64,000 bases of DNA from positions 1 through 64,000 of the forward strand of contig NZ_SMMU01000006.1 in the NCBI RefSeq assembly GCF_004339665.1, in the 5' to 3' direction. Position numbers and translations under genes: made by a program. The notes beneath the pieces were generated by a model that searched no databases, was not told where the DNA came from, and was given only the letters and a program-made list of their open reading frames with translations. Every line of letters starts with the position of its first letter. Position 1 is the stretch's first letter. This stretch comes from Azotobacter chroococcum. GTDB taxonomy: Bacteria > Pseudomonadota > Gammaproteobacteria > Pseudomonadales > Pseudomonadaceae. This document shows positions 12,650 through 60,525 of this stretch, piece by piece.

Positions 12650-12858
12650 GGTGGCTTGCCTGACTGCTGGTTCCGATCATGGGGTGGAGGAAAGATCTGT
12701 TCGCCGAGACTACGGGTATCCGGGCCTGCGCGGCAACCGTGCGGTTGTCCGCAGGAATGGCGGGTGCTTCACCATGCCGCTGTTGGCCTCTCGCCAGCTG
12801 AATGAGTTAGCTTGCTAAGATCCTGTCGGTCCTTTGCTTTGTCGCTTTCGGGGTGCCC

Positions 12859-16934
<4,076 letters not shown>

Positions 16935-16935
<1 letters not shown>

Positions 16936-17199
16936 GGCCTGTCGACGTTTGGGCGTAGGCCGCGACGGCGGCCCGTTTGGCGCAGAACAAGGAACGAGGA
17001 GAGAAGTTTGGTCATTCCAAATGAACGACGAGCGACGCCGTGCTGCGCCAAACGGGCCCCGTCCCTGCGGGTTGCGCGGCAAATGCCGCCATGCGGCGTT
17101 GCGGGTCTTGGCAAGGGAATGACCATTGCCGGCGCCCCGCGCCTTGCCTGGCGGCATTTGCCGCGGCAACGCGGCTCATGCCCAAACGTCGACAGGCCC
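16935..17199. mobile_element. 265-bp MITE with perfect 20-bp terminal repeats
   Basis: The ends GGGCCTGTCGACGTTTGGGC (16935-16954) and its exact complement (17180-17199) are perfect 20-bp inverted repeats flanked by TA on both sides (16933-16934, 17200-17201), as left by IS630/Tc1-mariner transposition. Inside are more perfect inverted pairs: 16 bp (16970-16985 with 17043-17058), 8 bp (17011-17018 with 17116-17123) and 15 bp (17076-17090 with 17150-17164). There is no transposase; open frames across it are accidental. It is therefore a non-autonomous element able to fold into a multi-stem RNA. It sits exactly between the helicase stop and the kinase start. Confidence 0.88.
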
Positions 17200-17205
17200 T
17201 AGGCC

Positions 17206-18990
17206 GTGGCGTTTCTCTCCGCCCGCCGGCGCATGCTGCTGGTCGTCCTGGCGATCCTCGCCGGGCTGCTCGCCAGCGTCTGGCTGGCCGGGCGCTACGC
17301 CGAGCGGCGCCACTGGAGCGAGACCGCCGTCGAGGCCCGCGGCCAGCTGGAGCTGTACGCCCAGTCGCTGCGCATCCTCGTCGAGCGCTTTCGCGCATTG
17401 CCGGCGATCCTTGCCTTGGACAGCGAGATCCAGTCGCTGCTGCGCGACGCCGCCGATCCGCTGGCGCGCGAGCGGCTCAGCCGGCGCCTGCAGCGTCTCA
17501 ATCGGGAGGCGGGAGCCGGGGTGATCTTCGTGCTCGACCTGCAGGGCAAGGCCATCGCCGCCAGCAACTGGCAGGAGCCGGGCAAGTTCGTCGGCGGCAA
17601 CTATGCCTTCCGCCCGTATTTCCAGGGCGCCCTGCGCGAGGGCAGTGCCCGCTACTTCAGCGTCGGCGTGACCACCGGGGTGCCCGGCTATTTCCTCTCC
17701 CGGGCGGTGCGCGACGCCGATGGCCGCATCCTCGGCGTGCTGGCGCTCAAGCTGGTGATGGAGGACCTGCAGCGCGACTGGGCGCGGCAGACGGGCATCC
17801 TGCTGGTGACCGACCAGCACGAGGTGGCCATCCTCGCCAGCCGGCCGGCCTGGCGTTTCCGCACCCTGCAGGGGCTGTCGCCAGAGTTGCGCGCCCGTCT
17901 GGTCGATACCCGTCGCTATGGCGACCGGCAGCTGCAGCCCCTGGCGGTGCGATCGCTGCGTCAGCTCGACGGCGACGCCGAGCTGCTGGGCATCGACGGC
18001 CCGGATGGCCGGCGCGACTACCTGCGCCTGCGCCAGCCGCTGGCCGACGAGGGCTGGACCCTGCAGCTGCTGCGCGAGGCGCGCGTGCCGGGCGGCGCGG
18101 TGCGCGGCTACGGCCTGGCGGCGGCCGGCATCTGGCTGGCGCTGGCGTTCCTCTTCCTGTTCCTCGGCCAGCGGCAGAAAAACCGCCGCCTGCTGCTGCG
18201 CCGCCGGGCCGAGCTGGAGCGGCTGGTCGAGGAGCGCACCGCGGCGCTGCGCCAGGCCCAGGACGAGCTGGTGCAGGCGGCGAAGATGGCCGCCCTCGGG
18301 CAGATGTCGGCGGCCCTGGCCCACGAGATCAACCAGCCCCTGACCGCCATGCGCATGCAGCTCGGCAGCCTCGGCCTGCTGCTGGCGAAGAACGATTCGG
18401 CGGCGATGCGCACCTGCCTGGAGCGCATCGACGGCCTGCTCACCCGCATGGCGGCGCTCACCGGGCACCTCAAGACCTTCGCCCGCGACACCCCCGGCGG
18501 TCTGCGCGAGCGCCTGGCGCTGGACACCGTCGTCGACCATGCGCTGCTTCTGCTGGAGGCGCGCATCCGCCAGGACGCCGTGCAGGTGCTGCGCCGGCGC
18601 GCGCCGCAGGCCTGGGTTGAGGGCAACGCGATCCGCCTCGAGCAGGTGCTGGTCAACCTCTTGCACAACGCCCTGGATGCTATGGCCGGACGCGAGCGCC
18701 GCGTGCTGCGCATCGCGCTGCGCCGCGACGGCGGCGACTGGCTGCTGAGCGTCGCCGACAGCGGCGGCGGCATCGCCGCCGAGCACCTGCCGCGGGTCTT
18801 CGAGCCGTTCTTCACCACCAAGCCGGTGGGCGAGGGGCTTGGCCTGGGACTGGCGGTGTCCTACGGCATCGTCCGCGAGTCGGGCGGCCAGCTGGAGGTG
18901 CGCAACGCCGGTGACGGGGCGCAGTTCGTCATCCGGCTGCCGGCAGCCTTGCCGCCGGATACACTGCAGCCCAGTCCGCAGGAGCCGTGA
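17206..18990 (+). CDS. DctB/MifS-type sensor histidine kinase
   Basis: A 594-residue membrane sensor kinase. A first helix (residues ~8-28) and a second (~303-325) bracket a periplasmic double-PDC sensor with the dicarboxylate-type segment GGNYAFRPYFQGALREG near residue 126. A coiled linker follows, then the dimerisation domain with phospho-acceptor His373 in LAHEINQPL and the ATPase domain with NLLHNALDAM, DSGGGI and GEGLGLGLAVSYGIV. The start is GTG 17206, six bases from the right MITE end; ATG 17233 is an alternative. The partner regulator begins one base after its stop. A role in sensing C4 or C5 dicarboxylates is inferred from the family and from the transporters downstream. Confidence 0.85.
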   Translation: MAFLSARRRMLLVVLAILAGLLASVWLAGRYAERRHWSETAVEARGQLELYAQSLRILVERFRALPAILALDSEIQSLLRDAADPLARERLSRRLQRLNREAGAGVIFVLDLQGKAIAASNWQEPGKFVGGNYAFRPYFQGALREGSARYFSVGVTTGVPGYFLSRAVRDADGRILGVLALKLVMEDLQRDWARQTGILLVTDQHEVAILASRPAWRFRTLQGLSPELRARLVDTRRYGDRQLQPLAVRSLRQLDGDAELLGIDGPDGRRDYLRLRQPLADEGWTLQLLREARVPGGAVRGYGLAAAGIWLALAFLFLFLGQRQKNRRLLLRRRAELERLVEERTAALRQAQDELVQAAKMAALGQMSAALAHEINQPLTAMRMQLGSLGLLLAKNDSAAMRTCLERIDGLLTRMAALTGHLKTFARDTPGGLRERLALDTVVDHALLLLEARIRQDAVQVLRRRAPQAWVEGNAIRLEQVLVNLLHNALDAMAGRERRVLRIALRRDGGDWLLSVADSGGGIAAEHLPRVFEPFFTTKPVGEGLGLGLAVSYGIVRESGGQLEVRNAGDGAQFVIRLPAALPPDTLQPSPQEP

Positions 18991-34933: not shown

Positions 34934-35009
<76 letters not shown>

Positions 35010-35066
35010 CTCTCGATTCGAGAGTGGCCACGTCAGTCAGCTTGACTGATCGGTTTTGAAGGTTTC

Positions 35067-35142
35067 GTCCCCTTCGTCTAGTGGCCTAGGACACCGCCCT
35101 TTCACGGCGGTAACAGGGGTTCGAGTCCCCTAGGGGACGCCA
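35067..35142 (+). tRNA. tRNA-Glu (TTC)
   Basis: 76 bases with encoded CCA. Acceptor arms GTCCCCT/AGGGGAC pair perfectly. The anticodon loop CTTTCAC on a CCGCC/GGCGG stem gives TTC. The T arm is AGGGGTTCGAGTCCCCT. First of two identical copies. Confidence 0.97.
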
Positions 35143-35192
35143 TTTCCAGCGACAGCGCCTTGGCGCTGTCTACGTCGAGAGACGCTAAATCC

Positions 35193-35268
<76 letters not shown>

Positions 35269-35317
35269 ATTCCACGCGAGGTCGGCGCGTATCGCCGGCT
35301 TTGTCATCGAAGGTTTC

Positions 35318-35393
35318 GTCCCCTTCGTCTAGTGGCCTAGGACACCGCCCTTTCACGGCGGTAACAGGGGTTCGAGTCCCCTAGGGGACGCCA
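35318..35393 (+). tRNA. tRNA-Glu (TTC), second copy
   Basis: Identical to the copy at 35067. The 6 bases just before both Glu genes (GGTTTC) and a little beyond are also identical, so the duplication took in flanking sequence. Confidence 0.97.
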
Positions 35394-60279: not shown

Positions 60280-60350
60280 TTTTTCCGGCCGCCGGTGCAG
60301 TTACCTTGAGTCCATCGAAGAGACAACCAGCGAAGAAGAAGGAGCCAACC

Positions 60351-60461
60351 ATGTTTATCGATGAAGTGGTGCTGGCCGGAATTGGAGTGGTGGGATTAAT
60401 GTTCGTCTTCGCTGGCGGAATCGGTTATTTCATCTGGAAGGACTCCCAGAACCAGAAGTAG
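60351..60461 (+). CDS. ccoM: cbb3-type cytochrome oxidase small subunit CcoM
   Basis: A 36-residue single-helix membrane protein. Its start MFIDEVVLAGIGVVGLM and end GYFIWKDSQNQK match CcoM of Pseudomonas stutzeri, a small subunit that stabilises the cbb3 oxidase. AAGGAG lies 7 bases before the ATG. The Anr box upstream fits a microaerobic respiratory gene. The main ccoNOQP genes are not in the window, as is usual for ccoM. A perfect terminator follows. Short proteins like this are easily missed in annotation. Confidence 0.88.
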   Translation: MFIDEVVLAGIGVVGLMFVFAGGIGYFIWKDSQNQK

Positions 60462-60499
60462 GAAAAGTCCTTCAGATCCAGAGCACGCAAGGCACTTTC

Positions 60500-60525
60500 G
60501 GGCGACGTTGTCGCCCTTTTTTTTT
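60500..60525 (+). terminator. Rho-independent terminator of ccoM
   Basis: GGGCGAC (60500-60506) and GTCGCCC (60510-60516) form a 7-bp stem with a GTT loop, followed by nine T. Confidence 0.95.

Follow-up and report, generated by a model that had tools for sequence, protein, structure and literature searches.

Results

A 265-bp insertion at a helicase–kinase junction

The window, i.e., the whole stretch of 64,000 nucleotides of Azotobacter chroococcum DNA that we analyzed, carries the gene of an SNF2-family helicase, then that of a sensor histidine kinase and, after the latter, a sigma-54-dependent response regulator. The first two of these genes are separated by a short non-autonomous element, and the features of the junction are as follows:

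12853–16935, + strand: SNF2-family helicase gene (PF00176, E 2e-62; PF00271)
16933–16934: TA of the target on the left side, which also supplies T and A of the helicase stop TAG (the empty sites of three relatives have their stop TAG here)
16935–17199, + strand: whole non-autonomous element, 265 bp (covariance model R1, 284.9 bits, E 2.4e-81; further copies)
16935–16954, + strand: left terminal inverted repeat, 20 bp (outer 16 bp shared, apart from base 9, with the 857-bp IS5-family element of genome G029)
16970–17058: arm 1 (stem 16970–16988/17040–17058; its apical part is conserved across genera)
17063–17071: central small hairpin CCC-TGC-GGG, inside the most conserved inner stretch (GNA triloop on the opposite strand)
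17075–17165: arm 2 (stem 17075–17094/17146–17165 and an apical part)
17180–17199, − strand: perfect 20-bp terminal inverted repeat on the right (base 9 altered as in the left repeat)
17200–17201: right TA, the target duplication (from comparison with the empty sites in three relatives)
17206–18990, + strand: sensor histidine kinase gene with GTG start (HATPase_c, HisKA, dCache_1)

An earlier note on this DNA had described 265 bp with perfect 20-bp terminal inverted repeats and flanking TA, inserted between two genes with both reading frames kept, and all of this is present: The helicase stop TAG is made up of the left TA plus the G with which the element begins, the GTG of the kinase is intact about 270 bp behind it, and taking away the element with one TA leaves 3 nt between stop and start, just as had been stated. 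The comparison of this junction in relatives, which the note had proposed as a check, was made by looking for the kinase-start region in 19 genomes including the strain's own and judging likely starts by frame. All 3 other same-genus genomes drawn (G001; G002, A. beijerinckii DSM 378; G003, Azotobacter vinelandii CA) have the junction without the element, with 4, 4, and 9 nt, respectively, from the stop to the likely start. Because these genomes lack it at the junction, the element was inserted in this lineage, to which the insertion is private among the four genomes compared.

The insertion restored the helicase stop, kept the frame of the kinase, and pushed the kinase start about 270 bp off; in view of the original stop–start spacing, it probably ended a translational coupling of helicase and kinase. 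No promoter-like or terminator-like site was found at the junction. Targeting of stop codons as a habit of the family was considered and set aside: Some 10 to 12 of 57 listed elements, short forms and one probable orthologous pair counted, have a coding-like frame (codon-position G+C judged by eye) that ends at the element's TAG, and chance would give around half of that by a rough estimate. Elsewhere in the window, the PhrS small RNA family is matched over its full length (60314–60525, + strand, 145 bits), and there are four tandem tRNA genes (34934–35390, + strand) that form two alternating pairs with identical scores.

Anatomy and fold of the element

At 265 bp and with perfect 20-bp ends, the element has the build of a MITE and is not long enough for a transposase gene, and the open frames over it all enter or leave across its sides. 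Its 20-base end gave two matches at up to 3 mismatches, both of them perfect, where shuffled sequences let expect 0.03. The nested inverted repeats reported earlier were recovered as pairs of 19 and 20 nt (95%) and of 10 nt (90%) within the 265 bp. Judged by eye, arm 2 resembles arm 1 in an inverted, diverged form, and the two apical parts likewise have the look of one module present in inverted, diverged copies. A kissing interaction of the apical loops GGTCATTCC and GGAATGACC was also tried and dropped, as loop co-variation judged by eye was poor and each sequence fits better as a local hairpin.

Folded as RNA, the element reaches −182.8 kcal/mol, compared to −120.2 ± 5.3 for its shuffles (z −11.8), and the opposite strand folded as DNA gives a z of −13.2; in both cases, none of 200 shuffles was equal. 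The strong folding that the earlier note had seen, and had suggested to compare with shuffled sequences, is therefore real, but its emphasis on folded RNA is doubtful because the changes in the stems look like the upkeep of DNA (see below). No Rfam family matched at the element at the gathering threshold, nor at E up to 1 at the four loci where this was allowed.

A large family with a common middle

Searching the strain's own genome for copies, as had also been suggested, returned 36 BLAST matches, counting the window copy itself and opposite-strand matches. Ten copies are near full length including the window copy, to which the other nine are 91–97% identical, in agreement with the earlier view of a non-autonomous inserted element in multiple copies. 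Several of the 99 contigs of this 4.86-Mb assembly terminate within a copy. BLAST matches were obtained in 24 of the 95 genomes of a search among relatives (own genome counted), and many of them align solely at positions 24–243 so that the middle is common and the ends are not; these middle-only matches come mostly from other genera and in some cases from Azotobacter. A 20-base degenerate pattern of the end occurs with 0 mismatches in 28 of 148 family genomes (own genome counted), and its backward control in 0 of 148.

For a wider view we built the covariance model R1 from 25 members (alignment A1). At E ≤ 1e-5 it matched, of the 369 genomes examined from this class, 107 (own genome counted) from 84 of 272 genera, with a best E below 1e-20 in at least 86 of the 107 by a count of the matches listed; the E-values of this model are rough, and weak matches were lost because the filters are strict. 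Inside the window, the next best non-overlapping place for the model has an E of 0.33. Among 299 genomes drawn from the phylum, 80 match, and the matches listed include at least 54 from beyond the class, of which at least 41 fall within one family. A 37-base apical pattern (34 bases specified) was found in at least 107 stretches of named genomes, with hosts such as Thiodiazotropha, Alcanivorax, Nitrococcus, Pseudomonas, Stutzerimonas, and Methylobacillus; 80 of these 107 loci were searched for our member counts, and the other 27 as well as one viral and two plasmid loci, searched separately, are uncounted. BLAST of the window copy against phage and E. coli collections gave no match, four plasmid records were matched, and the apical pattern matched one IMG/VR contig.

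After removal of duplicates (L193/L283 and L200/L245) from 98 wide members, 96 distinct ones remained, of which 79 are 264–268 bp and 81 are 260–270 bp long, with ends placed by a model that rewards pairing. Several single loci deserve mention. On a plasmid of P. aeruginosa PA83, a member (L382:2501–2765) lies between the genes of an acyl-CoA dehydrogenase and a CoA-transferase, 7 bp past the stop of the former and without an entry in the plasmid's feature table. The IMG/VR contig, which is classed as viral and possibly a provirus, holds a full member (L326:931–1195, 285.8 bits), and another one (L309:3719–3984, 210.8 bits) resides in Methylobacillus arboreus, a methylotroph outside the groups that gave most named matches. 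Two members stand back to back in G123 (L123:1221–1781) with a single TA between them and with different ends, GCCGTTT and GACGTTT. Finally, four loci (L034, L044, L110, and L115) are derivatives of 49–64 bp that are hardly more than two arms, lack the hairpins, and keep the TA on one or both sides.

Conserved parts and target site

Conservation along the element was averaged by column over 107 rows, i.e., the members of 255–270 bp plus A1 with identical ones removed. It is highest in the outer 9 bp (90–91%) and the center (83%), followed by the apical parts (73–77%), the stems (60–67%), and the arms (52–54%), a profile with which a factor reading the apical parts is possible. The central triloop was found in 93 of 96 members examined and is TNC in 60 and GNA in 20, which is partly a choice of strand because, in many members, either strand fits the model. 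Unusual stability is a trait of GNA triloops in DNA as well as of UNCG loops in RNA, so the triloop does not choose between DNA and RNA.

Among the 81 distinct full-length wide members, TA flanks both sides in 43, one side in 30, and neither in 8, against a nearby TA background of 5% (taken from 83 of the 98 members, those of 260–270 bp with two duplicates still included); in a first set with short forms, TA was on both sides in 44 of 57. The target reads YTAR: 48 of 57 wide members have a pyrimidine just outside the left TA, and 53 of 59 have a purine just outside the right one.

The palindrome seems to be kept as DNA

In alignment A1, 96.5% of cells are paired in the three-armed structure, which was itself derived from A1. 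Cells in which both partners have changed number 262 compared to 59 in shuffles (0 of 500 shuffles reach this value), and slid structures score far lower. Nearly all stem changes are Watson–Crick, and summing the covariation table over helices 1, 2, 4, and 8 gives 220 two-sided versus 13 one-sided changes. As a control, we treated RNase P RNA from 25 genomes, largely those of A1 and the wide set, with the same alignment and folding; at a mean identity of 0.83, this RNA has diverged less than the elements, which are at 0.73. The wobble share of standard cells is 4.36% in the elements and 11.65% in RNase P. The residual cells differ more clearly: G-T and A-C are left over 17 and 17 times in the main stems of the elements, compared to 291 and 9 times in RNase P. 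Because these leftovers are equal, unlike in RNase P, the palindrome seems to be maintained as DNA. Over all helices of the element, there are 91 G-T and 27 A-C cells, and helices 3, 5, and 9 hold 56 of the G-T next to 10 A-C, an excess that may partly come from predicting the structure under RNA rules. The fold has no preference for a strand (12 of 25).

Agreement between the two arms is likewise closer within than between elements. In the strain's own genome, using 8 of the 10 near-full copies (two that do not align as exactly 265 bp were omitted), the arms differ by 0.375 of 20 bases within an element and by 1.625 between elements (permutation p 0.0013). For the 81 distinct wide members, the mismatches are 0.40 of 16 within and 4.67 of 16 between, a figure biased towards agreement because the model that sets the ends rewards pairing. 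The window copy has its change at base 9 in both arms, and the other seven own copies compared lack it; copying from arm to arm would be the simplest cause of this shared change.

IS5-family elements as candidate partners

Where relatives have complete elements with such ends, these encode IS5-family transposases, so the partner type found by searching for the ends and for IS5-type transposase is IS5 and not IS630, and the earlier assignment to the IS630/mariner type is not supported. An 857-bp element of G029 with ends GGGCCTGTTGACGTTT has an open ORF and TA at every readable flank. It is whole at four contig ends, which means at least two copies because a single copy may appear at two contig ends. 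The members usual in the window's genome share its outer 16 bp, from which the window copy departs at base 9 in both arms. In G002, a fragment at the end of a contig starts with the G029-type end and has about 81% translated identity to this element over 142 codons. G029 itself, the holder of a complete partner, has no member by BLAST.

A. vinelandii (G003) shows the tip TAGGGYCTGTT in pairs about 830–845 bp apart. Its end type GGGYCTGTTAACWCTA belongs to six complete copies of 827 bp (831 bp including both TA), another insertion sequence of 845 bp also has a tip pair, and a further copy of the G003 insertion sequence has a single recognized end (L185). Both insertion sequences carry IS5-family transposases (PF13340, PF01609, NF033580), the first with an apparent frameshift at a run of eight A, and the window's own genome has members bearing GGGYCTGTTAACWCTA-like ends, as does G003. 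In G005, the end type GGGTCTGTTCCCGTTT is found on an insertion sequence and on a member, of which one arm agrees fully and the other save for one base. A search of 18 genomes for the transposase family put NF033580 above the cut-off in G029, G003, and G005.

In the strain's own 99-contig assembly, no complete insertion sequence with these ends was found; there are only fragments of the transposase family, none of them above the cut-off, and a pattern search gave no inward-facing pair of ends 0.7–2.5 kb apart. Expected tip pairs were recognized at only 6 of 30 transposase loci. In one place of this genome (G000:C26:6713–7017; L012, L179), a partial member adjoins a fragment of an IS5-family transposase gene.

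One body with several ends

The ends of members keep GGGYCTGTT or something near it, and the next bases vary by subfamily, with the arms of any one element staying perfectly or nearly complementary. Three end types, GACGTTT, AACACTA, and CCCGTTT, were each found on IS5-family elements as well as on members, and an insertion sequence in G001 starts with GGTTCTGTTGACG, near the GACGTTT type. Among 29 further member-bearing genomes, 14 match the transposase family and 15 are without a match at E ≤ 0.001. The fit between insertion sequence and member varies: In G304, their ends differ at 1 of 16 bases; the end of the G352 insertion sequence has three differences from the G352 member and one from the member of G459, a genome of the same genus; and in G457, G503, and G160, the IS5 ends do not fit the one member read in each. 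Two members (L209 in G396 and L217 in G477) have quite different tips, GAATCTCTGATTAATT and ACCTCCGCAAAACCTC, and lack TA where the model places their ends; these possibly belong to other transposase groups, or their ends are misplaced.

The insertion sequences are themselves diverse, since the AACACTA group shares with the others only short translated stretches of about 30–48% identity. Comparing the 220-bp core of the family with nine insertion sequences gave no significant similarity (best E 0.004, over a stretch of 18 bases), so the core is not a simple deletion product of these nine. Taken at the level of sequence, this is a large family with a 265-bp three-armed body that is palindromic at the DNA level and with ends that in several cases resemble those of different IS5 lineages.

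Weighing the explanations

We consider it very likely that the element is a MITE moved by IS5-family transposases that recognize the end GGGYCTGTTGACGTTT and insert at TA (YTAR), and that it combines a palindromic body with ends differing between subfamilies. One end would be exchanged or mutated first and the other arm then copied from the changed arm, by template switching at a hairpin or cruciform or by conversion between the arms. Such arm copying would explain why the same private change is found in both arms of the window copy, and an exchange of ends would allow the element to pass from one transposase to another. The TA flanks of the window element are typical of the IS630/mariner family, and a MITE of the same anatomy could be moved by an IS630 transposase; we see hardly any chance of this in light of the complete IS5-family elements in relatives, which were searched by their ends and by IS5-type transposase, and of the YTAR target in wide members. 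It is just as improbable that we deal with a single-strand DNA element moved by a HUH, REP/RAYT-like transposase with IS5-like tips by coincidence. Conserved hairpins, conserved apical parts, and a GNA-type triloop would suit such an element, but the tips and TA match complete IS5-family elements exactly or nearly in G003, G005, G029, G304, and G352, and the derivatives reduced nearly to their arms retain TA on one or both sides.

A structured RNA maintained for regulation, in leaders or at intergenic positions, for which spreading would be secondary, has more in its favor and is nonetheless quite unlikely. The fold is very strong with covariation above shuffles, the apical parts and the center are conserved, the center would, as RNA, read as a UNCG loop on one strand, and helices 3, 5, and 9 have their excess of G-T. 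Against this stand the equal G-T and A-C leftovers of the main stems, so different from RNase P, the few one-sided changes, a fold that is equal on either strand with both orientations scoring nearly alike at many loci, and the lack of an Rfam family matching the element. Once the G-T and A-C leftovers had been compared, a riboswitch or sRNA was no longer our preferred reading. Less improbable than any of these, and still unlikely in our view, is an origin of the subfamilies by separate deletions, each from its own insertion sequence, that came to share a common middle through recombination between elements in a cell. Partners for such recombination exist, because different end types occur together in one genome; however, no significant homology links the middle with the insertion sequences compared, and recombination with another copy would not readily give the private change in both arms of the window copy. 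The explanation of choice remains the IS5-moved MITE, with arm copying and an exchange of ends as its proposed mode of change. An extension of it that we entertain only tentatively would see these elements as phylum-wide passengers, i.e., an exact-palindrome body that is maintained by arm copying and refits its ends to the resident IS5 transposase, with a conserved factor that reads the conserved apical parts and the central triloop hairpin as folded single-stranded or cruciform DNA and favors movement or survival; this factor would perhaps act at replication forks.

Discussion

REP/RAYT systems are defined by a hairpin with a tag tetranucleotide and a HUH transposase, and the usual picture of a MITE is that of a deletion derivative of one insertion sequence, confined to one host group. 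The closest relatives of our element in kind are IS5-family MITEs of bacteria and archaea, for example, those of archaea tabulated in PMC3852290, which are likewise short, geneless, multicopy, and equipped with terminal inverted repeats shared with IS5. In contrast to them, the body is here conserved across genera and beyond the class, the ends are like different IS5 lineages, the length is nearly fixed at about 265 bp, and the body is not homologous to the insertion sequences compared. Correia elements and other TA-flanked IS630-type MITEs (see the review PMC10969869) also use a TA target, are folded, and lie between genes, but differ in their end sequence and partner transposase, which here is IS5. 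The REP/BIME sequences with RAYT transposases of Pseudomonas (PMC2718517) are similarly palindromic, intergenic, and of high copy number, whereas our element is much longer and has IS5-type ends and a TA target. The TIMEs of Pseudomonas, which derive from Tn3, are non-autonomous pseudomonad elements moved in trans as well (PMC4133298), though with Tn3-family rather than IS5 ends. Our end and apical sequence strings were not found in the open-access literature, and no account of such a family was recognized among the papers listed there by topic, which include PMC4465626 and PMC4853749; subscription papers and ISfinder lay outside this scope so that a prior name is possible.

At the level of the locus, the message is modest: a helicase gene and a sensor kinase gene were set apart by an insertion. 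At the level of the family, a conserved middle without an Rfam match raises the question of what reads this middle. One conserved body has here been met with ends like those of several IS5 lineages, in many families, beyond one class, and on plasmids too. If its ends have truly been exchanged, this would be a direct route for a transposon parasite to switch its helper.
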